Shown: positions 1-17,151 of the stretch, one piece after another
Position numbering within the stretch: the first letter of the stretch is position 1
Layout: each line of letters begins with the position of its first letter
Origin: Bacillus sp. Bos-x628
GTDB lineage: Bacteria; Bacillota; Bacilli; Bacillales; Bacillaceae
Length of the DNA stretch: 64,000 nucleotides
Reading direction: 5' to 3'
Assembly (NCBI RefSeq): GCF_040500475.1
Contig: NZ_CP159358.1
Location: forward strand, 682,001 to 746,000
The notes under the pieces: model-generated
Told to the model about the DNA's origin: nothing
Database searches by the model: none
What the model saw: the letters and a program-made list of their open reading frames with translations, nothing else
Translations under genes and position numbers: made by a program

Positions 1-542
1 CCTGTGGCGCCGGTTATTCCCGTGGTTCCAGTTGGACCCGTGGCGCCGGTTATTCCTGTGGCGCCGGTTATTCCTGTGGCGCCGGTTATTCCCGTGGCGC
101 CGGTTATTCCTGTGGCGCCGGTTGCTCCCGTGGCACCGGTTGCTCCTGTGGCGCCGGTTGCTCCTGTGGCGCCGGTTGCTCCCGTGGTTCCAGTTGGACC
201 CGTGGCGCCGGTTATTCCCGTGGCGCCGGTTATTCCCGTGGTTCCAGTTGGACCCGTGGCACCGGTTATTCCTGTGGCGCCGGTTATTCCCGTGGTTCCA
301 GTTGGACCCGTGGCACCGGTTATTCCCGTGGCGCCGGTTATTCCTGTGGCGCCGGTTATTCCCGTGGTTCCAGTTGGACCCGTGGCGCCGGTTATTCCCG
401 TGGCGCCGGTTATTCCTGTGGCGCCGGTTGCTCCCGTGGCGCCGGTTATTCCCGTGGTTCCGGTTGGACCCGTGGCGCCGGTTGCTCCTGTGGCGCCGGT
501 TGGACCCGCAATTCCCCCACACATATTAAGTTGGGCGCACAT
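1..542 (-). CDS. Collagen-like (BclA-type) spore-surface protein, C-terminus cut by window edge
   Basis: The minus strand encodes a protein opening [10 protein letters not shown], followed at once by about 165 residues of uninterrupted Gly-X-Thr triplets (GAT, GIT, GPT, GTT) running off the left edge. Perfect G-X-Y periodicity is the collagen-like repeat of Bacillus spore filament proteins such as BclA; Thr in every Y position suits O-glycosylation (family knowledge). The leader is very short and has two cysteines. An in-frame stop at 570-572 limits the start to ATG at 542, a GTG at 551 or a TTG at 560; I chose ATG 542, preceded by a GTGAG-type ribosome site. It lies 44 bases downstream of the Ena-like gene and probably shares its transcript. 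By context it could form the tip or surface filament of the appendage; that role is inferred. The C-terminal trimerisation domain, if present, is outside the window. Confidence 0.85.
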
Positions 543-586
543 GTCTCTCACTACTTTCAAACTGTGGAATCATCAAGACATACACT

Positions 587-934
587 CTAATACTGATAAT
601 TCAGAGAAAATGAAACAACAATATTTCCAGTTGAGGTTCCACCAGTCCCTACAATGCCAATCGAATTAATATCATTTAGCGTAATTGATCGACTTTCTCC
701 CGGAGGAACTGTAAAATCTGGAACTGCAGCTCCGTTTACTTCCAGAGTGACAGTAGGTGCTACCGCCACAACTCCATTGTTTTCCACCATAATCGTTCCG
801 TTTATGACAAATGGTGTTCCATCTGTCCATACCACAACTGCATCCGGCGCTGTCGCTGCTAATTCTAATGTGAAGCATACTGCATCATTCACGAAGCCCG
901 TTTGCTCATTACTACACCCGCCTAAAATAGCCAT
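587..934 (-). CDS. Ena-family endospore appendage subunit (DUF3992-type)
   Basis: 115 residues, all-beta in appearance, with a strong AAGGAGG ribosome site 6 bases before ATG 934. Cys7 is followed by a segment FVNDAVC (Cys20) that matches, from memory, FVQDKVC in B. cereus Ena1A; the later pattern GTIMVENNG, VTLEVNG and PPGESRSITLNDINSIGI also follows the Ena jelly-roll. In that family an N-terminal Cys-bearing arm cross-links stacked subunits into micrometre-long fibres on the spore. The C-terminal cysteine of S-type Ena is absent here (SFSLNY where Ena1A has an FC), which points away from S-Ena and perhaps toward the L-Ena/Ena3 type. It sits between the coat-Ena fusion and the collagen gene and has its own sigma-K-like promoter, so mother-cell expression late in sporulation is expected. 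The family assignment is good; the L-type assignment is inference. Confidence 0.8.
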   Translation of the reverse strand: MAILGGCSNEQTGFVNDAVCFTLELAATAPDAVVVWTDGTPFVINGTIMVENNGVVAVAPTVTLEVNGAAVPDFTVPPGESRSITLNDINSIGIVGTGGTSTGNIVVSFSLNYQY

Positions 935-961
935 TTTAACCCTCCTTCAACCTATTCTTGA

Positions 962-989
962 TAGACTATGATCTAGTGATCTACGTCGT
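962..989 (-). promoter_or_regulatory. Sigma-K-type promoter of the Ena-like gene
   Basis: On the minus strand -10 CATAGTCTA (962-970) matches CATAnnnTA fully, with AC as -35 (988-989) at a 17-base spacing. It lies 28 bases before the start codon of the Ena-like gene. An 11-mer TTGTGCGATTA (plus strand, 990-1000) directly abuts the -35. Confidence 0.65.
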
Positions 990-1008
990 TTGTGCGATTA
1001 TCCCAGTT

Positions 1009-1683
1009 TTAAAGCTTTATTTTTTTCCTCCGAACCATATTTAACTGGATGTCTAATAATGCTTGCACGTTTTCTGTTGATTCCTCCTTTGAAATATATA
1101 GTATATCTTCCACTGTTATTGCTCGACTTTCTCCTTTTTTTACACATACGTGATGACTTGTTTTTTTCGTTTGAATCCTAATTGAAATTGGTACATCCTG
1201 ATCACCTTGATGATGTAAAACGACAGTTGCAGTATTACGCAACTTTGTTTCATTACGCCATATTTCAAATGAACTGGATGATGTTGAAAAACAAAGGGGT
1301 ATGCGATGAGTCTCTATATTCCTTAGAATAAGGTCATCATATACTGGCAACTCCACTTCACTGATTCCACATAAGAAGGAGACATCCATCAAAATCCTTG
1401 AACTTGATCGATACAATACTTTTTGACAGCAAGCCGGTCTTGCACAGCATGGTACAAGAAGCTCTAACAACACACAATTGTGATCTTCATTGATGGAAAT
1501 CAAAGAAAAAAAGCAGGTCTTAAACATATTATTTTCAGAGAAAACCCAAGAATAAAAAGGTGCCCCATCTTTAGTCATGAGGAAAAAAGGAAAATCCACT
1601 GAACATTTGTGAGCAAATCTTTCGTCTTTTGTCTTATTTTTTTTCTCTTTTAATCTACTCATCAGCAGGTTTGTCACTTTCAA
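1009..1683 (-). CDS. CotY/CotZ/ExsY-type coat protein fused to an Ena-like domain
   Basis: 224 residues. Residues about 25-115 follow the Cys-rich CotZ/ExsY self-assembling crust/exosporium family: PFFLMTKDGAPF resembles the ExsY segment with TKAGAPF, followed by NCVLLELL, a CC/CC cluster at 79-86, and ILMDVSFLCGI resembling the family's DL/CFC strand. Residues about 118-216 repeat the Ena pattern of the next gene: LCFSTSS (Cys131), TATVVLHHQG and KKGESRAITVEDILYIS. The natural reading is an anchor that joins the spore crust to an Ena fibre. The B. cereus group is reported, as I recall, to carry an L-Ena locus with exsL and l-bclA; this may be the equivalent. The frame opens at TTG 1683; ATG 1662 is equally possible, as neither has a clear ribosome site. 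A perfect sigma-K promoter precedes it. Confidence 0.72.
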   Translation of the reverse strand: MKVTNLLMSRLKEKKNKTKDERFAHKCSVDFPFFLMTKDGAPFYSWVFSENNMFKTCFFSLISINEDHNCVLLELLVPCCARPACCQKVLYRSSSRILMDVSFLCGISEVELPVYDDLILRNIETHRIPLCFSTSSSSFEIWRNETKLRNTATVVLHHQGDQDVPISIRIQTKKTSHHVCVKKGESRAITVEDILYISKEESTENVQALLDIQLNMVRRKKIKL

Positions 1684-1726
1684 TCAGTCCAATTCAATGC
1701 TGTATACTCAGCCATATGGTTCTTTT

Positions 1727-1753
1727 TATCATATGTTCATTTGACTTTATTGT
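1727..1753 (-). promoter_or_regulatory. Sigma-K-type promoter of the coat-Ena fusion gene
   Basis: On the minus strand -10 CATATGATA (1727-1735) and -35 AC (1752-1753) are separated by exactly 16 bases, a full match to the AC-N16-CATAnnnTA consensus. The shared 11-mer TTGTGCGATTA (plus strand, 1750-1760) overlaps this -35. It indicates transcription in the mother cell late in sporulation. Confidence 0.7.
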
Positions 1754-1784
1754 GCGATTACCTAAAACAAAAGCCGTAATCGTT

Positions 1785-2195
1785 TCATGAGCTAAACTTT
1801 TTCATATAATATGATCGAGACACAGTAGCTCTAGGATGAAGCAGATTGTACAGCGTTTTGGCGAAAATAATCAAGCAACCAAAGCCTTTTTGCGAGGTTT
1901 TTAGGACGTCAAAGGACTTTTGTGACGTTTTGAAAATGTCAACCGCCCTGATTGCGGCTGTGGTAGCTTGGGTGGTTTTGTAGATCGCTTTTCCGCCTTT
2001 GAGGATGCGTCGCCCTGCCCAGCTGACGATTGGGATGTAACCTGCTGCTGCCATTCCGCCTGCGGCGACACGCTCTCCTGCGGTGAGATGCTTGCCACTG
2101 ATCGGATCAATCGTGGAAGGCTTTTTGTTTATCTATAAAGCTAATCAACATATCCACATTTCCAGCTAGTTCTTGATAAAAATTTTTAATTATGA
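1785..2195 (-). pseudogene. Decayed copy of an LXG toxin gene
   Basis: The stretch 1870-2110 is a diverged duplicate of the pre-toxin hinge of the intact LXG gene (4440-4700): the reading GYIPIV.WAGR, KGGKAIYKTTQAT and KTSQKSFDVLKTSQKG recurs. At about 2118 the match jumps to the N-terminal LXG part of the intact gene (around 5310), so some 600 bases are missing inside the copy. Frames are broken and the tail reads into unrelated sequence ending near 1785. This is an orphan cassette left by recombination at a polymorphic-toxin locus and encodes no usable toxin. Confidence 0.8.
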
Positions 2196-3942: not shown

Positions 3943-5538
3943 CTATCTGTTAGGATTTTGATTAGGAAATCCAGTTATTTCACCTTCTGGAATAAACCTT
4001 CTATGAGTAACCCCCTTATTTGGATCAACAATCCACTCAAAAATACCATTTTGATTTTTTACAGAAATCACTCTTTCAGTTATTCGCAAATCTTTATTAT
4101 AAACATCCTTGTAACTATAATGTTTCATTCCACCCTCAATTTGATATAACTTAACTTTTGTTTTATCACCACCAACCAGATCAAACTCTTTAGCCCATGG
4201 TGTGTAATTATCAATTATATCATTGAAACCATGTTGACCATCTGGCTTTTTCAATGCGCTTCCGACTCTTTTATTATCTAATACAGGATGTTCAATTTTA
4301 TTTTCTTTAACTCCCATTTTACCATGAAACCCTTTCGCCCCAAACGGCAAAAGCATCCCCAGCGCCGCATTCATACTCGCTTCCTGTTGTTCTTTTGAGA
4401 TCTTGTTCCCAAACATGTCTCTGCCAGTGATGGCTTCGCTGAAGCCGTTTGTGGCGGTGAGACCATATAAGCCTTTTTGCGATGTTTTTAGGACGTCAAA
4501 GGACTTTTGTGACGTTTTGTAAATGTCAACCGCACTGATTGCGGCTTTGGTAGCTTGGGTGGTTTTATAGACGGCTTTTCCGCCTTTGAAAATGCGCCCT
4601 GCCCAGCCGACAATTGGGATATAACCTGCTGCTGCCATTCCGCCTGCGGCGACACGCTCTCCTGCGGTGAGATGTTTGCCTGTGATGGGATCAATGCCCG
4701 TTGCGGCTCGTTTGGCGTCATTCACTCCGGTCAGTTCATTCAAAAGCATACCGCCATCATCAAGTGCTTTTTCATACCAAGGACGGTTCGCCAGTGCTTC
4801 CTGTTCTTTCGCAATCTTGCGGGCTTCTTCTTGTTCTTTTTTGTTTTTTAAATATTCAGAAGTTTGCTTCTCAATATCGTCTTTTGCCTTGTAGATTTCG
4901 CTATTTTGATACGCTTTTTTATCAAAATTGATCGGTGAAATGGTTTTTCCGTCATTTGTCGCATTCATCATTTCGGCGTACAATGCCATTGTAGCCTGCT
5001 CTTCAGTCTCTGACAAAGCATATTCAGCTTTTAGATATTGGTCTAATTCGTTTAAATCTTTTACGGTCTTTTTCCGTTCGTCTTCGGCATCCGTTATCTT
5101 TTCATGAAAGATTTGATCATCAAACACATCAAGAGAGATGAGATCATCTATATCCTGAAAAATGGTTTCCAGTGCCTTCTTTTGATCAGATACAATGCTT
5201 TTAGCGTTTTTTAACCCCATCTCTACTTTATTTTCTAAAAAGTGTTCATCAATAAAAGTATCACCGCCGAAATTGGCATCTTCAAGTGTACCCGCAACAC
5301 CTTCGTGAAAGGCTTTTTGTTTATCTATAAAGCTAGTAAGCATGTCCACATTTCCTGCTAGTTCTTGATAAAAACTTTTAATATTGTCGGCACCTTTTCC
5401 AGTGAAATCATCACCTAGATTCGCCACACCTTGTAATGCGTGCTTTAAATCTACCATTTGTTCGCGGAGTTCCTGATAGTGCTTGGCTCTTTCTTCCATA
5501 GCGCTTGTTAGTGCTTTGGCATCAAGTATTTTCCCCAG
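3943..5538 (-). CDS. LXG polymorphic toxin, T7SS-type substrate
   Basis: About 531 residues. The N-terminal ~220 residues are helical LXG domain (GKILDAKALTSAMEERA, FTGKGADNIKSFY); residues ~295-330 hold a Gly/Ala-rich pre-toxin hinge (AAGYIPIVGWAGRIFKGGK); the last ~130 residues form the toxin part (QHGFNDIIDNY, KLYQIEGG, FEWIVDP, GVTHRRFIPEG, GFPNQNPN), whose activity I cannot name. LXG proteins leave by the Yuk/Ess type VII system and kill neighbours. ATG 5499 has no ribosome site and would cut off the conserved LXG start; extending the frame reaches CTG 5538, six bases after GGGAGTGA, so CTG is the likely start or a mutated ATG. No small WXG100-like partner is nearby. The DUF2247-like gene follows by 13 bases. 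Confidence 0.85.
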   Translation of the reverse strand: MGKILDAKALTSAMEERAKHYQELREQMVDLKHALQGVANLGDDFTGKGADNIKSFYQELAGNVDMLTSFIDKQKAFHEGVAGTLEDANFGGDTFIDEHFLENKVEMGLKNAKSIVSDQKKALETIFQDIDDLISLDVFDDQIFHEKITDAEDERKKTVKDLNELDQYLKAEYALSETEEQATMALYAEMMNATNDGKTISPINFDKKAYQNSEIYKAKDDIEKQTSEYLKNKKEQEEARKIAKEQEALANRPWYEKALDDGGMLLNELTGVNDAKRAATGIDPITGKHLTAGERVAAGGMAAAGYIPIVGWAGRIFKGGKAVYKTTQATKAAISAVDIYKTSQKSFDVLKTSQKGLYGLTATNGFSEAITGRDMFGNKISKEQQEASMNAALGMLLPFGAKGFHGKMGVKENKIEHPVLDNKRVGSALKKPDGQHGFNDIIDNYTPWAKEFDLVGGDKTKVKLYQIEGGMKHYSYKDVYNKDLRITERVISVKNQNGIFEWIVDPNKGVTHRRFIPEGEITGFPNQNPNR

Positions 5539-5620
5539 AAGAAGTCACTCCCTCCTATTCATTGATAAGGACAATTTTACCAATGCAAAGATTGCCATTA
5601 AATAGTGAGAAAGATACAAA

Positions 5621-5650
5621 AACAGCACTCGGAATCATACGAGTGCTGTT
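5621..5650 (-). terminator. Strong hairpin upstream of the LXG gene
   Basis: AACAGCACTCG (5621-5631) pairs perfectly with CGAGTGCTGTT (5640-5650). On the minus strand GTTTTTGTATC follows, which fits a terminator isolating the LXG gene from transcripts coming from the right. Confidence 0.55.
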
Positions 5651-5966
5651 GAAAGGGTTCTCTGTAAAGATATATACTACTGAATCAAACGGTTTAGAAG
5701 CAGAGGGTACTTATGAATCGAAGACGAAAGCACATTTCATCAATTCACCCAATGTCTATTACATTATGATTTTTAACTATTTTAAAATTTCCGACAATAT
5801 ATACTTGTTTTTTCTTTGTATTTATTCTCTGCAACTATATAATAAATAGGACAAGAAAGGGGTTTACCGACTTGGATACTGAGAAAGTAATCCCTTATGA
5901 CTTGGTGGCAACCAAACTCGAGAATATATAACACTCGTGTAATAGTGTATAACTATACCAGTTATA

Positions 5967-5975
5967 TGTTATAAT
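5967..5975 (+). promoter_or_regulatory. Extended -10 promoter, candidate for the antitoxin RNA
   Basis: TGTTATAAT is a full extended -10 (TGnTATAAT) on the plus strand; no good -35 is present. It points toward the 3' end of the convergent type I toxin gene at 6061-6147, where the antisense RNA of TxpA/BsrG/BsrE-type systems starts. The antitoxin itself is inferred. Confidence 0.4.
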
Positions 5976-6060
5976 CCGTTTATCATCGGTATAAATTAAA
6001 AGAAACTAGGATCAATGTAAAAATGCTGGCTCTCAAAAATGAACCTCCCCTAGAAATGGT

Positions 6061-6147
6061 CTATTTCTTTTTATAAATATATGTCAACAAAGCAAGAATA
6101 AACATCTCAAACAGAAACATAAGGGACAAAGCTTGAAAAGTTGACAT
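6061..6147 (-). CDS. BsrE-like type I toxin peptide
   Basis: A 28-residue peptide beginning MSTFQALSLM, with one hydrophobic helix (about residues 5-24) and a basic tail ending KKK. The start is almost that of B. subtilis BsrE (MSTFQALMLM, from memory), and ALLTYI recurs near the end of the helix. Such peptides insert in the membrane and are silenced by a convergent antisense RNA (BsrE/SR5, BsrG/SR4, TxpA/RatA). The ribosome site (GAAAGGGGG) is 8 bases before the ATG and lies in the 3' arm of a 12-bp hairpin. The gene lies beside rap-phr and an integrase remnant, the prophage-like setting where this family is usually found. Confidence 0.8.
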   Translation of the reverse strand: MSTFQALSLMFLFEMFILALLTYIYKKK

Positions 6148-6148
6148 A

Positions 6149-6178
6149 GGCTAAACCCCCTTTCAAGGGGATTTAGCC
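6149..6178 (-). promoter_or_regulatory. Hairpin sequestering the toxin ribosome-binding site
   Basis: Arms 6149-6160 and 6167-6178 pair over 12 positions (one G-U in the mRNA) with a 6-base loop; the whole AAGGGGG Shine-Dalgarno sits in the arm next to the start codon. Occluded ribosome sites are a known feature of type I toxin mRNAs. It would keep the peptide poorly translated unless the mRNA is refolded. Confidence 0.65.
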
Positions 6179-6439
6179 AGTAGACCACACTTTGGGTAAA
6201 CCGTTCATTTGTACGTCCTCTTTTATACATGAAAAGATTGGTACCACCCATCTTGTGACTTTAAGAAATGCTTCGTCACAGTCTATACATTTAATGTTTA
6301 CTTCCTCTTTATAAGAGACAATTCTTACTTCAAAGCAAGGACACTCCCACTTATGGCTCTTAGGCTTCCCTTGCGTCGGTTCAGTAATTCTGTAGCTGAT
6401 GGCGTTTCCCCATTCTCTATCGCAGCCATATAATTTGTA
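6173..6439 (-). pseudogene. Zinc-ribbon-like open frame without a start codon
   Basis: 88 open codons after an in-frame TAG at 6440-6442. The reading YGCDREWGNAISYRITEP, then HKWECPCFEVRI and IKCIDCDEAFLKV with C-x-C and C-x-x-C pairs looks like real protein with a small zinc-ribbon. There is no ATG, GTG or TTG near the N-terminal end, and an overlapping frame just upstream also looks coding (IDIDQEVFVIAKHS, MAAIENGETPSATELL), so this is probably a gene broken by a frameshift. The stop codon lies inside the hairpin upstream of the type I toxin. Function unknown. Confidence 0.4.
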
Positions 6440-6493
6440 CTATGCTTTGCAATAACAAACACTTCTTGATCAATATCTATTTGAGCTATCTGC

Positions 6494-6673
6494 TTATCCG
6501 TTTTGAGAAGTTGTGTTTCGATCGATTTTTTGTGGAATGAAAGTTGTATTTCTATTCGAATCCTCCATTGTTGTATTTCGGTTTGATGCTGGTTTAATCA
6601 TACTAGATACTTCATATACACCTGCACCTAAAAAGATAATAGAGCTTATAACAATCATTTTTTTAATACTCAT
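6494..6673 (-). CDS. Phr signal-peptide precursor with three NRNTT/DRNTT copies
   Basis: 59 residues: basic start MSIKK, hydrophobic export segment (6-20), then an exported part carrying NRNTT at 31-35, NRNTT at 40-44 and DRNTT at 51-55. Phr precursors are exported, trimmed to a penta- or hexapeptide, re-imported by Opp and bind the cognate Rap; the B. subtilis PhrH product is (T)DRNTT from memory, so this is PhrH-like in signal. ATG 6673 overlaps the end of rap by 11 bases and its ribosome site AAAGGAGAG lies inside rap, so the two are translated together. Three signal copies in one precursor are unusual compared with classical single-copy Phr proteins. Confidence 0.85.
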   Translation of the reverse strand: MSIKKMIVISSIIFLGAGVYEVSSMIKPASNRNTTMEDSNRNTTFIPQKIDRNTTSQNG

Positions 6674-7781
6674 AAAGACACTCTCCTTTTTGAATATTAT
6701 GTTGGGCTTGAAATGCCATCCTGTAATATTCTGTTGATTTCTCAAACTTTCCTCTTTTTTCATGAATAACTGCAAGATTTTTAGTGAATTCTTCTACGAA
6801 AACAAACAACTGCTTTTCTTCAAATGTCTGAAGCATAGCTTGAATTTCATCCTCATCATTACTTTCATATGTTGTTCTTATAGAACGTATTAATAAAATT
6901 TCGTGTGGATTCTCTTTATGAGAGACAAGTTTCAAAGCTTTATCCACTAATTTGGATGCTTCATCATTTTCTCCTGTCTTATATAGCGCCCAACAAAGGT
7001 TAACATATATGACCGATTTTACATCGTACATACCATCTTCTGATATTTCAAGGGACTCTTGATAATATTGGATAGCCTTTGCATAATCTTGTTTTTTCTC
7101 ATAATTGTTTCCTATATTTAAAAGTGCCTTGGCAATCAACCTATTATCCGCTATTTCTTCAGCAATGGAATAGGCTTTATTCAGATGTATGAATGATTTT
7201 TCATACTGTTTAAAATCATCATAATTTCCTGCTATTACAAATAAGCATTGAATTTTTCTCACTTTATAAAGATCATATTGATCATAGATTTCAAACGCTT
7301 TTAAAATATGATGCATCGAAACATGGGTTTGTTTCATAATATAGTAAGCTTCAGCCACCTTAAAGTGAAACTCGGCTTGCTCAATATCATCTATAACTAG
7401 CGTAAGTTGTTTCTCGGCCATTTTATAGTATTGGATGGCCTGTACATATTCTTTTATGCTGAACTCATACATACCTCTAAAAAAGGCATTGTAATACTGC
7501 AACATGCCGGAAAGTCGGTGATTTGTATTTTCGATTTTATCAGCTAAGTCTGCAATTGACACAGATCGTTTCTCTGAAGGTTTAATATAATCAAGCATCA
7601 ACTGATGACGAAAACACATCAATTGATAGTAGATAAGTAAATCTTGGTCTTCTTCCATTCTCTCAATTTCTTGTTCCACTTCGGCTTTCAAAATCTCTGC
7701 ATCTGGTACACTAAATTGCCGAATCATTTTATACCATTCATTTATTTTCACACCAACATGTGAAGAAAGAACTTTCTCCAT
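6663..7781 (-). CDS. Rap-family regulator (TPR protein)
   Basis: 372 residues from ATG 7781. The N-terminal three-helix bundle (VGVKINEWYKMIRQF, EVEQEIERMEEDQDLLIYYQL) and the C-terminal run of TPR units (FHFKVAEAYYIMKQTHVSMHHI, ALLNIGNNYEKKQDYAKAIQYYQESL) are typical of Rap proteins, which dephosphorylate Spo0F or block ComA or related DNA-binding regulators and are inhibited by the Phr peptide. The partner phr overlaps its 3' end. An upstream in-frame GTG (7790) is too close to AAGGGAG to be the start. No ComA box was seen. The pair lies in the accessory island, as many mobile rap-phr pairs do. The precise target cannot be read from sequence. Confidence 0.9.
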   Translation of the reverse strand: MEKVLSSHVGVKINEWYKMIRQFSVPDAEILKAEVEQEIERMEEDQDLLIYYQLMCFRHQLMLDYIKPSEKRSVSIADLADKIENTNHRLSGMLQYYNAFFRGMYEFSIKEYVQAIQYYKMAEKQLTLVIDDIEQAEFHFKVAEAYYIMKQTHVSMHHILKAFEIYDQYDLYKVRKIQCLFVIAGNYDDFKQYEKSFIHLNKAYSIAEEIADNRLIAKALLNIGNNYEKKQDYAKAIQYYQESLEISEDGMYDVKSVIYVNLCWALYKTGENDEASKLVDKALKLVSHKENPHEILLIRSIRTTYESNDEDEIQAMLQTFEEKQLFVFVEEFTKNLAVIHEKRGKFEKSTEYYRMAFQAQHNIQKGECLYEY

Positions 7782-7979
7782 CTCCCTCACTCTCCCTTTG
7801 AAACCCTTTGTGTAATTTTAACACAATATTTACAGCATATGAAAAGATTGGATATCTGAACTGAAAATTTTCGGTATACCGCAATCGAGATGTCTTACCA
7901 AGCTCATTGCTTGAGTCAATCACTAGAACACATTCTGGACAGAGTGTTTTGATTCAACTAGGAAAAATTCATCTTCTTT

Positions 7980-8610
7980 GCCGTTAGACCATTGAAGAGA
8001 ATTTCATCAAATCCGTGTGATGGAGTTGTATGACCGAAGAAAGATTGAAGTAAGTATAAACAGGGTTTGGAGTATATTAACTCTGAGGATATTGGAAAGT
8101 TCTTGAAAATAGTTCGACAGGATCACTAAATCTACTACATTTTCTTTAAGACTTTGATTGTAACTGGAATGAGGAAAGGGGAAGCGGCTGCTCTTCAAAG
8201 AAAAGATATTGATCTGAAGAACTATAATCATAAATAAATCACTAGATTTCTAGAGAAAACCTGGTGAAGAAGCATTCGGGAACACAAAAACATATCATTC
8301 AGAACGGACAATCAAGATTACTGAATCTCCTACAAAAGAATTGCAATCTCACATGAACATGAGCTAGATCTTGTTTTTGCACAGAAAAAGGAGCTCCTTT
8401 ACCAAAATCCTCCCTGTTCAATGCTCTAAAAAGGATATTGAAGCTGAAATAGCAAATATCCCAATCCATGGACTAAGACATACTCATGCCGTTCTTCTGT
8501 TAGAAGCTGGCCAAAGCATAAAGTTCATCCAAGAAAGATTGGGACATAAAAACATAAGCATCACTTCTGACGTATATGCTCATAATATAAGTGAAAAAAT
8601 TCGAAAATAA
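7980..8610 (+). pseudogene. Remnant of a phage-type tyrosine integrase
   Basis: Broken frames still spell the catalytic domain: EYINSEDIGKFLKIVRQDH, stop, IYYIFFKTLIVTGMRKGEA (first catalytic Arg region), AALQRKDIDLKNY, stop, KTYHSERTIKITE, then an open stretch 8371-8610 with HGLRHTHA, LGHKNI and SDVYAH, the conserved H-x-x-R, H and tyrosine nucleophile. Several in-frame stops and frame changes make it inactive. It faces the 3' end of glnA and probably marks the right end of the element that brought in the LXG, toxin and rap-phr genes. Confidence 0.8.
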
Positions 8611-8636
8611 ATCTATGGACAGTTTCGAGAATTACA

Positions 8637-8663
8637 TCAACTCAATTCTGAGTTGAACTTTTT
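8637..8663 (+). terminator. Terminator after the integrase remnant
   Basis: TCAACTCA (8637-8644) pairs perfectly with TGAGTTGA (8649-8656) over ATTC, followed by ACTTTTT. Confidence 0.65.
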
Positions 8664-8667
8664 GTTG

Positions 8668-8735
8668 AATTTGGTGGTCAAAAAGTGGTCAACCCTTATT
8701 CAGGGTGTGGTCACTATTCATTGGACCACCAAATT
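8668..8735. repeat. Palindromic element between the integrase remnant and glnA
   Basis: Perfect 12-bp arms AATTTGGTGGTC (8668-8679) and GACCACCAAATT (8724-8735) enclose two further TGGTC copies. It may be an integrase-binding or attachment region, or the 3' hairpin of glnA mRNA; the sequence alone does not decide. Confidence 0.5.
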
Positions 8736-8770
8736 TATTTTTAAGACCCTATTAAATCAACGTTTCTCTA

Positions 8771-10105
8771 TTAATACTGAGACATATACTGATCGCGTTC
8801 CCATGGGTGAACTTGGGTGCGGAACATATCCCATTCGATTTCTTTTGCTTCGACGAAGTGCTCGAATAAGTGCTCACCTAGGGCATTCACCATGACTTCG
8901 TTTGATTTTAAATGCTCAAGAGCTTCTGCAAGTGTTGCAGGGAGATCGGCGATGCCGTTTTCAAGGCGCTCTTCTTTGTCCATGACATAGATGTTTCTGT
9001 CGATTGGAGCAGGTGCAGCTAGTTTGTTTTTGATTCCGTCTAGACCTGCTGCAAGTAATACGCTTAGTGCAAGGTAAGGGTTTGCAGATGGGTCAACGCT
9101 TCGCACTTCCACACGTGTGCTGATGCCGCGTGATGCAGGAATACGGATAAGCGGGCTGCGGTTTTGTGCACTCCATGCTACATAGCAAGGCGCTTCATAG
9201 CCTGGAACAAGACGCTTATAAGAGTTGACTGTAGGGTTTGTGACCGCTGTAAAGCTTGTTGCATGCTTCACGATACCAGCGATAAAGTGTCTAGCGGTCT
9301 CGCTTAATTGTAAATCTGCTTTTTCATCATAGAATGCATTTTTCCCATCTTTGAATAATGATAGGTTACAGTGCATACCAGAACCGTTTACACCAAACAA
9401 TGGTTTTGGCATAAATGTCGCATGTAGACCGTGCTTTCTTGCAATCGTTTTGACAACGAGTTTAAAGGTTTGAATGTCATCACAAGAGCGGATAGCGCCT
9501 GCATATTTGAAATCAATTTCATGTTGCCCAGGTGCTACTTCATGGTGAGATGCTTCAATTTCAAAGCCCATCTCTTCCAGTTCAAGTACGATATCACGGC
9601 GACAGTTTTCGCCTAGATCTGTTGGTGCAAGATCAAAGTATCCGCCTTTATCGTTTAATTCAAGGGTCGGTTCACCTTTTTCATCAAGTTTAAATAAGAA
9701 GAATTCTGGCTCGGGTCCAAGGTTGAAATCGCTAAATCCCAGCTCTTCCATTTCTTTCAAGATACGCTTTAAGTTGTTGCGCGGGTCACCATCAAACGGT
9801 GTACCATCTGGTTTATAAATGTCACAAATAAAGCGTGCAACTTTACCTTTTTCTGCTGTCCAAGGGAAAATAACAAATGTATTAAGATCTGGATATAGGT
9901 ACATATCTGATTCTTCAATACGTACAAATCCTTCAATAGATGAACCATCAAACATACATTTGTTATCGAGAGCTTTCTCAAGCTGGCTCACAGGAATCTC
10001 AACATTTTTAATCGTTCCGAGAATGTCTGTAAATTGCAGACGGATGTACTTTACGTTTTCCTCATTTACTAATTTTATGATATCTTCTCTTGTGTATTTT
10101 GCCAT
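8771..10105 (-). CDS. glnA: Glutamine synthetase, type I-alpha
   Basis: 444 residues, the B. subtilis length, nearly identical to Gln[37 protein letters not shown] and [26 protein letters not shown] are present. It joins ammonium to glutamate using ATP as the cytoplasmic dodecamer; in Bacillus the feedback-inhibited enzyme also controls TnrA and GlnR by protein contact (family knowledge). It is the second gene of glnR-glnA, 60 bases after glnR, and so falls under the GlnR operator. ATG 10105 has a GGGGAGGAG-type site upstream. No clear terminator was seen beyond the palindrome at 8668-8735. Confidence 0.97.
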
Positions 10106-10165
10106 TTCGTAAAACTCCTCCCCTACAAAAGGTAAAATGTTTATAGCAATGCTTTTGCTAATCAG

Positions 10166-10576
10166 TTAACGGAAGAACCTTGACATATCCCCTTGCCTAA
10201 AGGTCGTTCCTTGTTGGAAACGTCCTGCCTGAATGAGTTCCTTCTTCAGTAGCTTCCTGAGTTCATCATCTGTCAAGTTGTGCTTTGCTGAGGTTTTCTC
10301 CTTTGTCTGTATTTCAGACGTTGGATTTTCTGCCTCAGCTTTGGCAAACAGTTTCTTAATTCCTGCCATGTTTACACCTTGTTCGATGAGGTTTTTAATC
10401 TCTAGTAATTTATCAACATCATGAAAAGAAAATAATCGGCGATTCCCGTCACTTCTTGCTGGAAATACTAAACCATTTTCCTCATAATAGCGAATTTGTC
10501 TTGCAGACAGTTCTGTTAGCTGCATGACAATCCCAATTGGAAATAAAGGCATTGAGCGGCGAATGTTATCACTCAT
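10166..10576 (-). CDS. glnR: MerR-family nitrogen repressor GlnR
   Basis: 136 residues beginning [15 protein letters not shown], as in B. subtilis. The N-terminal winged helix ([32 protein letters not shown]) is MerR type; the C-terminal tail, ending RQGDMSRFF, is the autoinhibitory segment that contacts feedback-inhibited GlnA. It represses glnRA when nitrogen is plentiful. I chose ATG 10576, with GAGGAGGAG 9 bases upstream, over an 11-residue longer frame. Promoter and operator are visible directly upstream. Confidence 0.96.
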
Positions 10577-10607
10577 CTCAACTGTCTCCTCCTCTTTGCT
10601 TAAATTC

Positions 10608-10636
10608 ATTATATGTCATGTTATATTATGTGTCAA
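10608..10636 (-). promoter_or_regulatory. glnR sigma-A promoter
   Basis: On the minus strand TTGACA (10631-10636), 17-base spacer, TATAAT (10608-10613): a perfect consensus promoter. A second, imperfect GlnR-like half-site pair overlaps it. Confidence 0.85.
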
Positions 10637-10641
10637 CAATA

Positions 10642-10658
10642 TGTTAGGAATATTAACA
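10642..10658 (-). promoter_or_regulatory. GlnR/TnrA operator
   Basis: TGTTAGGAATATTAACA fits TGTNAN7TNACA exactly and lies 5 bases upstream of the -35, the position of the operator in B. subtilis glnRA. Confidence 0.85.
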
Positions 10659-10667
10659 TGTATTTGT

Positions 10668-11948
10668 TTATTTAGATGTCACTTCAATCAAACCTTGATT
10701 CATTAAAGAATCTACTGCGCTGCAAACGGCATTTTTCACATGGGCATATGTGAGTCCGCCTTGAACATATGCCGTATAAGGCGGTCTGATCGGTCCATCA
10801 GCTGATAATTCGATACTCGCTCCTTGCACAAAAGTACCAGCTGCCATAATGACATCATCTTCATAGCCCGGCATATAGCTTGCGTGCGGCGTCACATGAC
10901 TGTTGACAGGGGAAGCATATTGAATCGCTTGGCAAAAAGCAATCATTTTTTTAGGATCTCCAAATTCAACGGATTGAATTAAGTCGGTTCTTTTGGCATT
11001 CCACGCTGGATTTGTTTGAAATCCAAGCTTTTCAAGAAAACGAGCTGTAAAAACTGCTCCCTTTAAACTTTGCGCAACGACATGAGGCGCTAAGAAGAAT
11101 CCTTGGTACATCTCTTGAAGCGCATACAGCGATGCACCCGCTTCACTGCCGATGCCTGGTGATGTCATGCGATATGAGCACGCTTCTACCCATCTTTCTT
11201 TCCCGACAATGTAGCCGCCTGTTTTGGCAAGACCGCCTCCTGGATTTTTAATAAGAGAACCAGCCATTAAATCTGCACCAACATGACAAGGCTCTTGTAA
11301 TTCAGTGAATTCACCGTAACAGTTGTCTACAAAGACAATGATTTCTTCATTAATTGACTTCACGAATGTAATCATTTGCTCGATTTCTTCAATAGTAAAG
11401 GACGGTCTTGAAGCATAGCCTTTGGAGCGTTGGATACCAATCACTTTTGTTTTAGAAGAGATGGTCTCTTTGACTTTTTCAAAATTGACTGACCCATCTT
11501 GAAGTAAATCAACGACCTTGTAGTCAATATGAAAGTCTTTTAATGAGCCTGTCCCTTCTTTTCCGCGGATACCCACTATTTCTTCTAGGGTATCGTACGG
11601 CTTTCCTGTCATATAAATCAATTCATCGCCGGGTCTTAATACACCAAACAACGCTATGGAAATTGCGTGTGTGCCTGAAATAATTTGCGGACGCACAAGA
11701 CCGCTTTCTCCCCCAAATACATCGGCATAAATGTTTTCTAATGTGTTTCTTCCCATATCATCATAGCCATATCCAGTTGTCGGATGAAAATGTGAATCAC
11801 TAACTTTATGCTTTCGGTAACTTTCGAGTACACGCCACTCGTTTTGTTCACTGATTTGATCAATTTGCTGATGCATGCGTAAAATCTCTTGTTCTGTTTC
11901 TGCTGCTACTTTTTCTAACATTTTGCCATGTTTTAATGTGTGAAACAT
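10668..11948 (-). CDS. ynbB: YnbB, PLP-dependent Met-gamma-lyase-like (aluminium resistance family) protein
   Basis: 426 residues of the fold-type I PLP family often annotated as methionine gamma-lyase-related or aluminium resistance protein. Visible marks are GTHAISIALFGVLRPGDEL, FVDNCYGEF and the cofactor lysine region SLIKNPGGGLAKTGGYIVG. The real reaction in Bacillus is not established. It lies between hflX and glnR as in B. subtilis, with ATG 11948 18 bases after the hflX stop, suggesting co-transcription with hflX. Confidence 0.9.
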   Translation of the reverse strand: MFHTLKHGKMLEKVAAETEQEILRMHQQIDQISEQNEWRVLESYRKHKVSDSHFHPTTGYGYDDMGRNTLENIYADVFGGESGLVRPQIISGTHAISIALFGVLRPGDELIYMTGKPYDTLEEIVGIRGKEGTGSLKDFHIDYKVVDLLQDGSVNFEKVKETISSKTKVIGIQRSKGYASRPSFTIEEIEQMITFVKSINEEIIVFVDNCYGEFTELQEPCHVGADLMAGSLIKNPGGGLAKTGGYIVGKERWVEACSYRMTSPGIGSEAGASLYALQEMYQGFFLAPHVVAQSLKGAVFTARFLEKLGFQTNPAWNAKRTDLIQSVEFGDPKKMIAFCQAIQYASPVNSHVTPHASYMPGYEDDVIMAAGTFVQGASIELSADGPIRPPYTAYVQGGLTYAHVKNAVCSAVDSLMNQGLIEVTSK

Positions 11949-11966
11949 TGTTATTCTATTCCTTTC

Positions 11967-13229
11967 CTACAACATATACTTCTTAATGTGACCTAATATC
12001 GTCTGGTCTTCACCGATAAACCCGGTGACCTCGTAAAGTTCGGCGTCTTTTTGAAACTCTAGCGATTCCACAAGTGTTGCTGATTTTAATGCTGATATCA
12101 GCTTTCCTTCATATGCCGGAATGTTCACATGGTAAGGCATTAAAAAGTCTTTTTTCAGCTCTGCCATAATTGTAGCCTTTAACCGCTTGATGTCTTCATC
12201 ATCTCTAGCGCTTATCAAAATATGCCGCTGCTTTGAAGAAGGGATGAAATCCGGACTGATTTGATCTTCTTTATTATAGACGGTCAGCATAGGAATACGG
12301 TCTGCTTCTAATTCCTTTAAAAGCTCATGAACCGTCCGTTCGTGTCCTTCGTAATCCTCATTAGAAGAATCGATCACATGAAGCAAATAGTCTGCTTCCT
12401 TCACTTCCTCAAGTGTGGAGCGAAATGCCGCAATGAGTGTCGTTGGAAGGTCTTGAATAAAACCAACTGTATCTGAAATAAGAACACTGTACCCAGATTC
12501 TAGTGTCATTTTACGTGTCATTGGATCAAGCGTTGCAAAAAGCAAATCTTCTTCATGACTATCTGCATCTGTTAACTGGTTAAACAAAGTGGATTTACCG
12601 GCATTCGTATAACCAACAATGGCAATTTGAAAAACACCATTTTTCTTGCGTCTTTCACGATATCTTGTTCGGTGTTCTTTTACTGCAGACAGCCCCGCGT
12701 GAATTTCATGAATTCGGCTACGAATATGGCGTCTGTCTGTTTCAAGCTTTGTCTCACCAGGACCTCTTGCACCAATACCGCCTCCTTGTCTTGAAAGGCT
12801 GATTCCTTGTCCGCTTAGTCGTGGTAAGGCATATTGAAGCTGAGCAAGCTCAATTTGTAGCTTCCCCTCTCGTGTACGGGCTCTTTTGGCGAAGATATCT
12901 AAAATCAATTGTGTCCGGTCAATAATCTTTACGTCTAAAGCAGTCGCCAAAGCTTTTAACTGGCTTGGAGAAAGCTCATCATTAAATATAATGACATCAC
13001 ATGCTAATTCTGCGCAAAGAACTTCAAGCTCTTCTACTTTCCCTTTTCCAATGTATGTTGCACTGTCTTGTCTATTTCTTTTCTGCGTTATGAAGCTAAC
13101 GGCTTCTCCGCCCGCTGTTTTTGTTAAGGAAGCTAATTCTTCCATCGAGTATTGAAAGCGTTCATCTGTTACATGCGGCAATTGACAGCCGACAAGTATC
13201 GCCTTTTCTTTGTTTTCTTGTTCATTCAA
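11967..13229 (-). CDS. hflX: GTPase HflX (YnbA), ribosome-splitting factor
   Basis: 420 residues if started at TTG 13229 ([18 protein letters not shown]), the B. subtilis YnbA length; the open frame continues 24 codons upstream without homology, and GAAAGGA lies about 11 bases before the TTG. N-terminal HflX domain, then the glycine-rich linker [21 protein letters not shown], then G1 [10 protein letters not shown]3 DTVGF and G4 NKED. HflX binds the 50S subunit and dissociates stalled or stressed ribosomes. It is followed by ynbB. Confidence 0.92.
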
Positions 13230-13356
13230 CGTGAATTGTTTCCTTTCTGTACTTAAGTTTTCAGTAGTACCATCATACCAAACCGCAACCACGCATACCA
13301 CTTATTCGGAAGGTTTATTTTACAATGTCTGCTTAAGAAAAGGATACGCCATATTG

Positions 13357-14313
13357 TTAAGGCGTATCCTCTTTCATTTGAAGATCTTGGCTTTTAATGG
13401 TGAGTAAGTCTTTTTTATCATAATGATCTACAAGTAAAAGCCTCATTGCTTGTGCACGAATCGCTTTTTCAATCGTATTCCGTACAAAACGACCATTACT
13501 GAATTTTGCAGGGCTCGTTGTACTTTTGATTTGCATTAAATAATCTCTTAATTTCCATTCTGCTTCTTGTGTAAACTGATACTCACGGTCTGCCATCATT
13601 CGTTTGGCAATATCCATTAATTGATCAACTGTATAATCAGGAAAATTGATGTTGATCGGAAATCTAGATTGAAGTCCTGGGTTTAATGATAAGAAATGAT
13701 CCATTTCTTTAGAATAGCCCGCCAAGATCAAAATGAATTCATGTTGTTTATCTTCCATATGTTTGACCAGTGTGTCAATGGCTTCTTTTCCAAAATCCTT
13801 CTCTCCTCCGCGCGCAAGAGAGTAAGCTTCGTCAATGAATAAAATACCGCCAAGTGACTTTTTAATTAAATCCCTTGTTTTCTGCGCTGTATGCCCAATG
13901 TACTCTCCGACAAGATCACCACGTTCTGCTTCTATTAAATGACCTTTTGATAAAACATTCATCTCAAAGAAAAGCTTTCCGACGAGTCGGGCTACAGTTG
14001 TTTTCCCTGTACCTGGGTTGCCTTTAAACATCATATGAAGCGTCTGTTTCCCCACTTTCAGTCCTTGTTCCTGCCTTTTTTGGTTCACAAAAATCCAAGC
14101 ATAAATTTCTTTTATATTGCGTTTCATTTCATCCATTCCCACAAGACTATTCATTTCACGCTCTATCTCTCTTAAGATGCTGTGTTTGGCCTCATTTTTC
14201 TGTAAGGCTTCCAGGTATTCTGCCTCTGAATCTGCATCAATCAATACTTGCTTCTGTCCATTAAGTATAATATTGATTTGGCCGTTGTTTTTATATGTGA
14301 CAGCTCGCTCCAA
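13357..14313 (-). CDS. spoVK: Stage V sporulation AAA+ ATPase SpoVK
   Basis: 318 residues from TTG 14313 (LERAVTYKNNGQINI), which has AGAGGTGA five bases upstream and matches the B. subtilis start; the frame runs 20 codons further upstream without homology. One CbxX/CfqX-type AAA+ domain: Walker A GNPGTGKTT, Walker B GGILFIDEAYSLARGG, sensor region NPGLQSRFP. It is needed for spore maturation in the mother cell. A sigma-K-like promoter lies upstream. The neighbours cwlC and hflX are as in B. subtilis. Confidence 0.93.
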   Translation of the reverse strand: MERAVTYKNNGQINIILNGQKQVLIDADSEAEYLEALQKNEAKHSILREIEREMNSLVGMDEMKRNIKEIYAWIFVNQKRQEQGLKVGKQTLHMMFKGNPGTGKTTVARLVGKLFFEMNVLSKGHLIEAERGDLVGEYIGHTAQKTRDLIKKSLGGILFIDEAYSLARGGEKDFGKEAIDTLVKHMEDKQHEFILILAGYSKEMDHFLSLNPGLQSRFPININFPDYTVDQLMDIAKRMMADREYQFTQEAEWKLRDYLMQIKSTTSPAKFSNGRFVRNTIEKAIRAQAMRLLLVDHYDKKDLLTIKSQDLQMKEDTP

Positions 14314-14384
14314 TGTATTCACCTCTCGCTCTTCTCTCTTTATTCTATTCTGGTGGAGCTGTAATCGTGACAATCGCCCGCTTT

Positions 14385-14411
14385 TTCCCTATGACATGCA
14401 TCTTACTTTGT
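14385..14411 (-). promoter_or_regulatory. Candidate sigma-K promoter of spoVK
   Basis: AC (14410-14411), 16 bases, then CATAGGGAA (14385-14393) on the minus strand; one mismatch to CATAnnnTA. spoVK is known to be transcribed by mother-cell sigma factors. Confidence 0.4.
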
Positions 14412-14620
14412 TGTCAAATTGACCCGAGACAACGGATTTTATAGGGAATTCTGCGGTTTCCCAGGAAATGATCTGATGTCTTTATTGTATTCATCCATTT
14501 TGTGCGGACAAACCAACAATTTACTTTTTCTTAGAAAAAATGTAGCTTTTTGATCACAAATTGTGCAGAAAAGAGTGTCAATGAATTCCGCATTTTGTAC
14601 AAGCAATTTTTCTGTTTTCT

Positions 14621-14629
14621 CATAAAATA
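14621..14629 (+). promoter_or_regulatory. Sigma-K -10 element of cwlC
   Basis: CATAAAATA matches CATAnnnTA 20 bases before the cwlC start; the -35 is not a clean AC. cwlC is a sigma-K gene in B. subtilis. Confidence 0.55.
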
Positions 14630-14648
14630 AAGACGAGGTGATGAATAG

Positions 14649-15407
14649 ATGGTTAAAATTTTTATTGATCCGGGCCACGGAGGAACAGATTCTGGAGCTG
14701 TTGCTAATGGACTTTTTGAGAAAAATTTGACACTTCAAATTGCGCTTTTTCTGAGAGATATCCTGATTAGTGAATATGATGGGATTTCCGTCCGCTTAAG
14801 TCGTTCAACTGACCAAACCGTCACTTTATCCGAGCGAACGAATGCTGCAAATAGCTGGAAAGCTGATTATTTCGTATCGATCCATATCAATGCTGGCGGC
14901 GGCACAGGTTTTGAAAGCTACGTGTACCCTGGCGTTTCTGCGCCGACAACCACATATCGCAATGCTCTTCATGATGAAATTGCCCGCTCGGTTGATCTCA
15001 CCGACCGAGGCAAGAAAAATGCGAATTTCCACGTCCTTCGTGAAACTTCTATGTCCGCTATCTTAACAGAGAACGGTTTTATTGATACGACGTCTGATGC
15101 AAATAAGCTCCGTAACGCTTCCTTCCTTCAAAGTATCGCTCGCGCACATGCTTCCGGATTAGAAAAGGCGTTTCAATTGAAAAAAAAAGCAACTAACCTT
15201 TATAAAGTGCAAGTTGGTGCCTTCAAAGTCAAAGCCAATGCAGATGAACTAGCAAACTCGCTTACATCAAAAGGATTTGATGCATTTGTGTTGTTAGAAG
15301 GCGGCTTATTCAGAGTTCAAGCCGGCGCTTTCCGTTCAAAACAAAACGCGGATGAACTCGCTGCAAAAATCAAGCAAGCTGGTCATGACGCATTTGTTTT
15401 CCAATAA
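14649..15407 (+). CDS. cwlC: Sporulation N-acetylmuramoyl-L-alanine amidase CwlC
   Basis: 252 residues. N-terminal Amidase_3 zinc domain (1-180): FIDPGHGGTDSGA, glutamate in FEKNLTL, SIHINAGGG and the catalytic glutamate in ILTENGFID. The C-terminus has two SPOR repeats (YKVQVGAFK, then FRVQAGAFR), which bind denuded glycan. CwlC helps to lyse the mother-cell wall late in sporulation; it has no signal peptide, as in B. subtilis. ATG 14649 follows GAGGTGA. It is the only core gene on the plus strand between spoVK and ymaB and ends in a shared bidirectional terminator. Confidence 0.95.
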   Translation: MVKIFIDPGHGGTDSGAVANGLFEKNLTLQIALFLRDILISEYDGISVRLSRSTDQTVTLSERTNAANSWKADYFVSIHINAGGGTGFESYVYPGVSAPTTTYRNALHDEIARSVDLTDRGKKNANFHVLRETSMSAILTENGFIDTTSDANKLRNASFLQSIARAHASGLEKAFQLKKKATNLYKVQVGAFKVKANADELANSLTSKGFDAFVLLEGGLFRVQAGAFRSKQNADELAAKIKQAGHDAFVFQ

Positions 15408-15418
15408 CTGTTATATTA

Positions 15419-15457
15419 AACAAACCGGCTCTACTAGGGAAGGAGAGCCGGTTTGTT
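15419..15457. terminator. Bidirectional terminator between cwlC and ymaB
   Basis: Perfect 14-bp arms AACAAACCGGCTCT (15419-15432) and AGAGCCGGTTTGTT (15444-15457) between convergent genes. Confidence 0.85.
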
Positions 15458-15468
15458 AATTAGTGGAT

Positions 15469-16086
15469 TTACGCTAAAATGTTCACGACAAATTGAGACC
15501 AAGTTTCGAGACGATCGAAGTATTCAGGCTTTTTCAATTCAGATACTTTCATCCATTTTCCTGAGATTTGATCTGTTTCTCTTACTTCAACGTGAGCACC
15601 AGGTACTAATTCAAGTGCGGATAAAAACCCAATGTGCACACGACCAACACTGTTGTCGTCATCATTGATTAATCCAAGAGTTCGCATATCGAGTTTGTCT
15701 TCCTCTTGAATGGAAAGTTCCTCATCGAGTTCACGATCCGTATTTTTCTTTAGGATCTCAGCAAAGTTTTTGCCTTCGATAAAGTTCATATGACCTCCAA
15801 AACCAAGAGATAACTTATGATGTAATCTTGTTTCTCCGCCGCCTTGAAGTCTTTCATATACATATACTTCATCTTCACGCTTAATCACGACATAAGGGAT
15901 TGGCTGCTTGAAGTCTGGATTTTCTTCCGCATCGCCTCTTCGCATCTGTTCAAAGTGTTCTTCGATTTCTTTCATAATGGTTTTGATCGTTTGCTCTTCA
16001 CTATTTACACCATTAAATGTCAGTGTTTCATTTTGAAATACACATTTGCGCGGTGCAACTAAAATGATTTCATCCATTTTTCCCAT
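15469..16086 (-). CDS. ymaB: YmaB, Nudix-like protein of the nrd operon
   Basis: 205 residues from MGKMDEIILVAPR, the B. subtilis length, with GGAGG 9 bases before ATG 16086; 17 extra upstream codons are not conserved. A Nudix-like segment is visible at LSLGFGGHMN followed by NTDRELDEEL, so a nucleotide-related hydrolase role is plausible, but the substrate is not known. It follows nrdF across a terminator-like hairpin as in B. subtilis. Confidence 0.9.
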   Translation of the reverse strand: MGKMDEIILVAPRKCVFQNETLTFNGVNSEEQTIKTIMKEIEEHFEQMRRGDAEENPDFKQPIPYVVIKREDEVYVYERLQGGGETRLHHKLSLGFGGHMNFIEGKNFAEILKKNTDRELDEELSIQEEDKLDMRTLGLINDDDNSVGRVHIGFLSALELVPGAHVEVRETDQISGKWMKVSELKKPEYFDRLETWSQFVVNILA

Positions 16087-16129
16087 GTTGGGTAACCTCC
16101 AGTATGTAACAAGTTGTAAGAAATGGCAA

Positions 16130-16160
16130 AAAGCCAAAACGAGTCATGCGTTTTGACTTT
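16130..16160 (-). terminator. Hairpin between nrdF and ymaB
   Basis: AAAGCCAAAACG (16130-16141) pairs with CGTTTTGACTTT (16149-16160); on the minus strand the stem ends in GGCTTTTTGCC. It is a probable terminator or attenuator after nrdF. Confidence 0.6.
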
Positions 16161-16170
16161 TTCGTTTAGC

Positions 16171-17151
16171 TTATGATTCATCTCCAAAGAAGAAATCCTC
16201 ATCTTTTAACGGCTCAACTGTTGCTTTTTTATAGCCGTTCCCTTTCATAGAAAAGAAGTCATGTGATTTTGTTTTTGTATTGAGTCCGTTCAATACGATT
16301 GGGTTAATCTCTTCTTCTTCAAAGTAAGGGGCAAATCCAAGATTCATTAACGCTTTATTGGCATTGTAACGAATGAACTTTTTCACGTCATGAGATAAAT
16401 TGACTTGGTCATAAATATCTTCTGTGTAATGAAGTTCATTTTCATAAAGCTCTTTTAGCAACTCAATGGAGAAATCATAAAGCTCTTTTTGCACGTCCGG
16501 TGTTTGTTTGTTGTAAATTTCTTGCGCTAATAATCCAACGTACACCCCGTGAATCGCTTCATCACGCAAAATCAAGTTAATGATTTCACCGCTTTGCATC
16601 AGCTTTCCTTGTCCATAAAAATAAAGCGGGTAATAGAAGCCACTATAAAACAGAAAGCTCTCTAAATAAACAGAAGCAACCATTGCTTTAAATAAAGAAA
16701 GAGGGTCATCTTCTTGAATTGAACGGTAAAGCCCAACAATTCTATCTGCTTTATTTTGCAAGTATTTATTTGTCTTGACCCATTCAAATACTTCAGTAAT
16801 CGTTTCTGTCGGAGCAAGCGTCATAAAGATATTTGAGTATGATTTCGCATGAACCGCATTCTCCATCATCGCCATAAAGTTCAAAACCGCTTTACGCTGA
16901 TGGCCGTTCACATGTTCTGCCACAATCGGCATACCTGTATTTCCTTGTTCTGTATCAAGTAAAGTCAGTCCAGCAAGTACCTTCATGTACGTATCCCGCT
17001 CTTCTTCACTTAAATATTTCCATGTCAAGAGATCACCGTTTAACGAGATCTCTTCTGGAAGCCAGAACTGCTTTACATTTTGATTGTAAAACATTTGTGT
17101 AAAATCATCTTCGTGTATTGACCAGTTGGCTGCATCATAAATTTTTGTCAC
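16171..17151 (-). CDS. nrdF: Class Ib ribonucleotide reductase beta subunit NrdF
   Basis: 326 residues from GTG 17151 ([11 protein letters not shown]), with AAAGGAGAG 6 bases upstream; the frame's extra 10 residues are not conserved. Ferritin-like dimetal-tyrosyl radical subunit: metal ligands appear in [16 protein letters not shown] (with the radical Tyr) and [12 protein letters not shown], and the C-terminal tail contacts NrdE. It generates the Mn(III)2-Y radical, with NrdI supplying oxidant. It starts 17 bases after nrdE and is part of nrdI-nrdE-nrdF. Confidence 0.96.

Follow-up and report, generated by a model that had tools for sequence, protein, structure and literature searches.

The L-ENA of Bacillus paranthracis (exsL, l-bclA and ena3A) is an endospore appendage in the form of a ladder fibre of stacked heptameric rings. 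In this system, ExsL tethers the fibre and is built into ExsY sheets by way of its CotZ domain, the tip is encoded by l-bclA, bclA and ena3A form a bicistron with exsL upstream, and sigma-K control of ena genes has been called likely, as stated in extracts of PMC12921279. L-ENAs are absent in an exsY mutant (extract of PMC12628813), and a CC motif lies in the N-terminal connectors of the Ena protomers and in the L-BclA tip (extract of PMC11952670). The S-ENA is built of Ena1A/B-type subunits on an Ena1C anchor, which is described in the same extracts of PMC12921279 as having no CotZ domain, and its connector cysteine couples to another subunit. In addition, the F-ENA, reported to be widespread in Bacilli and Clostridia, has an anchor, which in Bacillus is a collagen-like protein, and a BclA-type tip that docks by imitating the contacts between subunits (extracts of PMC11952670).

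We identified an exsL-ena3-bclA unit on the minus strand at the left edge of the window, the whole stretch of 64,000 nucleotides that was analysed (C1:682001-746000). The genome measures 3.33 Mb, and the contig carrying the unit 3.2 Mb. The features of the locus, in window coordinates, are:

1..542, minus strand: bclA-like tip gene, ATG at 542, first 180 codons in the window; Pfam Collagen 168.5 bits, BclA_C 145.3 bits
587..934, minus strand: ena3-like fibre subunit, 115 aa; Pfam Enas 94.3 bits, PDB 8pdz Ena3A 1.6e-35, AlphaFold2 model
940..946, minus strand: ribosome-binding sequence AGGAGGG of ena; AGGAGG in 10/10 aligned copies
962..970, minus strand: sigma-K-like -10 element CATAGTCTA before ena; CATAGTCTA in 8/10 copies, no conserved -35
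1009..1662, minus strand: exsL-like anchor, 217 aa, with a CotZ/ExsY-type N-terminal part and an Ena-type C-terminal domain; NF040827 311.4 bits
1727..1754, minus strand: sigma-K-like promoter CACA-N15-CATATGATA, 64 nt before the exsL ATG, seen in aligned copies

The three adjoining minus-strand genes claimed in the original prediction are present, separated by gaps of 74 and 44 nt, and all three proteins have family matches, which upholds the claim of a complete anchor, fibre and tip gene set. Since the E-values are 6.1e-27 and 6e-06 for Enas (subunit and anchor), 2.6e-93 for NF040827 and 1.1e-42 for BclA_C, the three-gene match is far from chance. We conclude that the B. pumilus group has a genuine L-ENA-type locus and that this locus is conserved. 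The open frame of the anchor extends over 1009-1683 (224 aa); the ATG at 1662 (217 aa) is the likelier start because 217 aa is the length of 18 of the 30 anchor proteins found, the window's own counted, and because the aligned copies support it.

The fibre subunit matched Pfam Enas with 94.3 bits (E 6.1e-27). Among PDB sequences the Ena3A chain of 8pdz was the best match (1.6e-35), followed by 7a02 (3.5e-05) and 9t3p (0.56). An AlphaFold2 model made from a 16-row alignment (mean pLDDT 84.4) returned 8pdz first in a fold search, with a TM of 0.86 and 58% identity in the fold alignment, and after it Ena1B, Ena1C and Ena2A at TM 0.68-0.71. The free Ena-like subunit proposed at 587-934 accordingly has significant matches by profile and by fold, with the Ena3A of the L-ENA as its closest solved structure, and is by sequence and fold a major subunit of the Ena3A type. 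In an Ena tree from a short alignment, with many unresolved forks and a bootstrap that had not settled, a branch with 100/98 support separates the pumilus-group subunits, together with one protein labelled Niallia, from the Ena3A clade of the cereus type.

The anchor matched NF040827, "CotZ-related putative spore coat protein", over residues 15-224 of the 224-aa frame (311.4 bits, 2.6e-93). Its C-terminus matched Pfam Enas at residues 137-198 with 26.7 bits, over the cut-off of 22 (E 6e-06), and in a profile-profile comparison 66 Ena-profile columns fell on the same end (E 5.6e-06). The N-terminus gave a weak match to Pfam CotZ (22.1 bits, under the curated cut-off of 24). The protein therefore has the ExsL architecture, an N-terminal CotZ part with a C-terminal DUF3992/Enas domain, the CotZ part being sub-threshold by Pfam alone and carried by NF040827 at 311 bits; a CotZ/ExsY-like anchor with an Ena-like C-terminus had been expected here. 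The suggested match of this C-terminus to Ena stood by profile and did not reach significance by fold because the predicted structure of ExsL is poor (pLDDT 57.9): 8pdz came first at E 0.017, and none of the matches of the search with this model reached E 0.001. An attempt to locate the anchor-fibre interface from the model was dropped for the same poor quality. We also rejected a conserved ExsL cysteine as acceptor for the first ring. In an alignment of 15 anchors the Ena half has no invariant cysteine, and several anchors have D or G in place of the cysteine that, by eye, lies near C20, so a covalent link between anchor and fibre is unsupported.

The genome has a crust-type cluster with CotY- and CotZ-like proteins and two Coat_X-domain proteins, in line with the earlier placement of the locus in a lineage with a crust. 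It contains three CotZ-family matches, namely the full CotY-like and CotZ-like proteins and ExsL, and no further CotZ/ExsY-family match was found in the genome. When ExsL was aligned with CotY and CotZ, the three proteins had common cysteines in a C-A/V-x-L-x-x-L stretch and in an F/L-C-A/G stretch. From these sequences, ExsL would naturally be expected to enter the crust.

The tip protein is complete in the genome (471 aa), its gene ending at C1:681127, beyond the left edge of the window. A 12-residue leader with two cysteines is followed by 108 perfect Gly-X-Y triplets with Thr at 98% of the Y positions, and the C-terminal end, which falls outside the window, is a BclA_C domain (145.3 bits, 1.1e-42). 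The short Cys leader, collagen repeats and BclA_C/C1q-like end are those of L-BclA. A collagen-like Gly-X-Thr protein with a Cys-containing leader was part of the original prediction; the repeats proved correct, and the leader has 12 residues by count rather than ten. Elsewhere in the genome (C1:3103000-3107000) lies a gene for another collagen-like protein, which has 654 aa and a Cys-rich leader; this protein gave 46.7 bits for BclA_C in the genome search, and the protein scan shows Collagen only.

The tip leader resembles the start of the subunit, MAILGGC. Among the 53 frames in the window that reach 100 aa, the motif A-x-[LI]-x-x-C falls within the first 20 residues in two, ena and the tip gene. 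We compared ten tip-subunit pairs, four from our own ten copies of the unit and six others, and found the motif in 6 tips and 9 subunits; four of the six tips with the motif as first written belong to the window's own clade. The cereus-type, Priestia and Peribacillus tips have P-L-G-x-C in its place, and the tip of genome G199 has neither form. The CC motif is absent from both the window subunit and the tip leader, in which the N-terminal connectors differ from those of the L-ENA. Likeness of tip and connector is a known idea, since the shared CC is already described (extract of PMC11952670), and it holds here without the CC.

A plasmid search found the L-ENA set in record CP079755.1 (L067), where exsL, l-bclA and ena3A follow one another in this sequence, next to genes for a recombinase and a Spo0E-type protein; in this record the L-Ena type lies beside l-bclA and exsL, as stated in the original prediction. 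From residue 2 onward its Ena, by eye, reads like the 8pdz chain. The NF040827 score of its anchor, 152.9 bits, is above the cut-off of 90, and its tip gave 149.8 bits for BclA_C. The three families of the window are therefore those of the L-ENA set, with a CotZ-Ena anchor and a BclA_C collagen tip in common. The record is filed as a plasmid of Klebsiella grimontii, with the ena3 cluster in the stretch 5263-17604 and a frame that by eye is transposase-like also beside it. It is probably Bacillus DNA, because a B. cereus-type ena3 cluster lies there beside a recombinase and a Spo0E-type gene.

The two systems also differ. The order is exsL-ena-bclA here (10/10 copies) and exsL-bclA-ena in the L-ENA of L067, and we treated gene order as an accessory feature. 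The window subunit has two cysteines compared with seven in the Ena3A of the L-ENA, and it belongs to its own clade of the Ena tree, apart from the cereus L-ENA Ena3A. The unit lies on a 3.2 Mb contig, unlike the L-ENA cluster of Bacillus paranthracis, and the genome has a CotX/V-CotY/Z crust-type cluster, whereas the L-ENA is attached to the exosporium through the ExsY sheet.

We found the unit in nine of 44 genomes of the genus, in ten copies, of which one tip gene (in G004) is cut by a contig end; the tip gene starts with MCAQLN in all ten. NF040827 had a match in 12/44 genomes, over its cut-off in 10/44, and PF13157 (Enas) in 9/44, and neither was found in any of 14 control genomes. The other three genomes carry remnants: in G019 an anchor match with eight stops and without an Enas match, and in G034 and G017 anchor fragments only, with a BclA-like end in G017. 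At the order level, NF040827 was passed by 6/397 genomes, Enas was over its cut-off in 80/397 genomes (40/135 genera), and an Ena3-type match at 1e-15 or better occurred in 14/397 genomes (8/135 genera). Because of these order-level matches, Ena proteins extend more widely than would follow from an extract of the 2021 review PMC8619143, in which the Ena1/Ena2 clusters are confined to the B. cereus group. A search with the anchor protein alone reached only one relative, B. zhangzhouensis; an alignment query would reach further. NCBI already names the proteins of the unit singly, and among the B. pumilus and ENA literature matches listed, a scope outside which the primary L-ENA paper falls, there was no report of an L-ENA-type unit in the B. 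pumilus group.

Genome G018 carries two diverged exsL-ena-bclA copies about 48 kb apart on contig C2, and the subunit of the second branches near those of Niallia and G015. Genome G015 has a second group of Enas-domain genes (C20:42500-48500), with four matches and a BclA_C-like protein nearby, which may represent a cluster of S-ENA-like type outside the B. cereus group. In G181 (C3:151000-160500), two Ena3-type genes are followed by a short protein whose leader, MAQLNPCC, resembles the Ena connector. The protein did not match the BclA_C model built here and may be a different tip protein.

We compared the surroundings of the unit over 13 stretches, some of them short, made up of the ten copies and the three remnant sites. 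Conservation among relatives is that of the three genes as a unit (9/44), and the flanking genes are not coat genes; neither of the outcomes named as refuting the original prediction was obtained. The neighbours, which we recognised by eye and take to be DUF1801-like, PAP2-like, ligD-like and ku-like genes, occur in 9, 7, 9 and 8 of the stretches, respectively, and a downstream Rap-type gene in 9; in this genome the Rap-type gene is RapH_N. The copy in G015 and one of those in G018 lie elsewhere, because only the three genes are common with the other copies. The right-hand side of the window differs from its relatives in that the DUF1801-like and PAP2-like neighbours are missing, and an LXG/pre-toxin gene and short frames directly upstream of exsL stand in their place (window 1785-2110 and 3943-5499). 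The short frames repeat, by eye, part of the LXG/pre-toxin gene and have no Pfam match. Further along are an Rfam BsrG match (RF01412, window 6061-6180, minus strand, 57.5 bits) and, by eye, the C-terminal end of a tyrosine recombinase (window 8371-8610, HGLRHTHA...GHKNI).

Upstream of exsL, CACA-N15-CATAnnnTA lies 57-68 nt before the ATG in 10/10 copies, and it is kept in G015 and in the second G018 copy, where the upstream regions are otherwise hardly alignable. A looser form (N14-16) occurs twice in the 64-kb window against 0.34 expected, a count of two being reached by 3/100 shuffles. Before ena, CATAGTCTA lies at 26-27 nt in 8/10 copies, is absent in one copy and different in another, and the -35 is not conserved; a sigma-K promoter for ena is half supported by these sequences. 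Both elements were called with what we take to be the sigma-K consensus. In L067, CATATAATA lies 35 nt upstream of ena3A. When the locus was scanned for terminators and sigma-70-type elements, matches were no more frequent than in shuffled sequence, and a search of the upstream alignments by eye yielded no GerE box that we would claim.

Median dN/dS was 0.185 for exsL (29/45 pairs), 0.068 for ena (29/45 pairs) and 0.081 for BclA_C (16/28 pairs), counting only pairs with dS of 0.05-1.5 and, for BclA_C, the 8/10 copies in which it was read. The only cysteines of the window subunit are C7 and C20. We counted cysteines in 76 Ena sequences, obtained by omitting 13 of 88 Ena proteins for length and adding the Ena3A of L067. 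C7 is present in 69/76 and C20 in 74/76; the two sequences that lack C20 lack C7 as well, and C7 is missing from five more, of which three have a cysteine at 6 or 8 and two are shortened at the N-terminus. The pair C21 and C81 occurs in 15 sequences and is missing altogether from 60, and C21 stands alone in one (Fisher p 6e-15, relatedness ignored). C8 is present in 26/76 homologues, so the CC motif is variable. We read C7-C20 as the probable basic link of the family and C21-C81 as an optional brace, the pumilus-group clade retaining the basic link alone. That C7-C20 is the axial bond, with its pairing and its direction between rings, is likewise a prediction.

Taken in full, the best explanation is that the locus encodes an L-ENA-type endospore appendage, a predicted fibre that we regard as probable. 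Sigma-K would activate the unit in the mother cell at a late stage, and the CotZ-type half of ExsL would build into the CotY/CotZ crust lattice. Ena3 subunits would then form rings that stack outward, with each N-terminal connector bringing Cys7 to the Cys20 of a subunit in the next ring, in what would be the sole axial disulfide. Mimicry of the Ena connector, A-x-L-G-x-C, by the tip leader, A-Q-L-N-x-C, would let a trimeric BclA tip dock on the last ring, and the resulting fibres with a collagen ruffle may promote spore-spore and spore-surface contact. The more specific proposal, that a lineage without an exosporium has L-ENA-type fibres rooted in the crust (CotY/CotZ via ExsL), held by the single C7-C20 axial disulfide and capped by a tip whose leader copies the connector, is in our view evenly balanced between true and false. 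The fibre, its anchorage in the crust and its single-bond chemistry are predictions.

The same genes could instead form a spore surface layer or nap, in which Ena3 rings and BclA sit on the crust through ExsL as short knobs and not as extended fibres. Such a layer would agree with the single cysteine pair left in the subunit, with the second collagen-like gene of the genome and with the review PMC8619143, an extract of which states that no species of the B. subtilis group has been seen to carry Enas on its spores. Also speaking against fibres, B. subtilis spores are still called "devoid of ENAs" in an extract of PMC11952670, where F-ENA is reported widely in Firmicutes. AFM and TEM of spores of B. 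pumilus ATCC 27142, a strain that may or may not carry the locus, are described in an extract of PMC6089432 that reports coat ridges and mentions no fibres. PMC8619143 also cites work on adhesion in which a B. pumilus strain and Ena numbers were included. However, the free subunit, which is more strongly constrained than the anchor, retains both its connector and C7/C20, and its closest solved relative, 8pdz, is a fibre by its title; we consider a nap unlikely.

It is much less probable still that the unit is a relic, decaying in the lineage and no longer expressed or assembled. Decay is visible in the genus, where the NF040827 match in 12/44 genomes exceeds the Enas match in 9/44 and the other three have fragments or stops, and the DUF1801-like and PAP2-like neighbours of the relatives are missing in the window. 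In this genome, however, all three frames are intact, each dN/dS to other species is low and the promoter element is kept. An appendage of the S-ENA or F-ENA type in place of the L-ENA type, which the name "S-Ena type endospore appendage" given to some relatives in NCBI-type annotation might suggest, is the most improbable of all, given that Ena3A matches the subunit far better (1.6e-35; TM 0.86) than the Ena1B of the S-ENA (3.5e-05; TM 0.70), with which it has the Enas family and a similar fold in common, that NF040827 is passed by the window anchor as by the anchor beside the 8pdz Ena3A, and that the two PF13157 matches of the genome are the subunit and the ExsL domain rather than Ena1A/B-type subunits with an Ena1C anchor. 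The F-ENA resembles the L-ENA-type reading in its anchor and its BclA-type tip, and differs in that the anchor here is CotZ-Ena and not collagen-like; the Enas match and this anchor speak for a type other than F-ENA.

In conclusion, the L-ENA-type gene set of the B. pumilus group is complete, conserved and under selection; with it, Enas outside the B. cereus group become directly testable in harmless strains, and a natural fibre subunit with few cysteines offers a means to dissect assembly. If our reading is true, C7-C20 alone would represent the simplest cross-linking among Ena3-family fibres. The locus also leads to the prediction that a crust can anchor fibres as the exosporium does.
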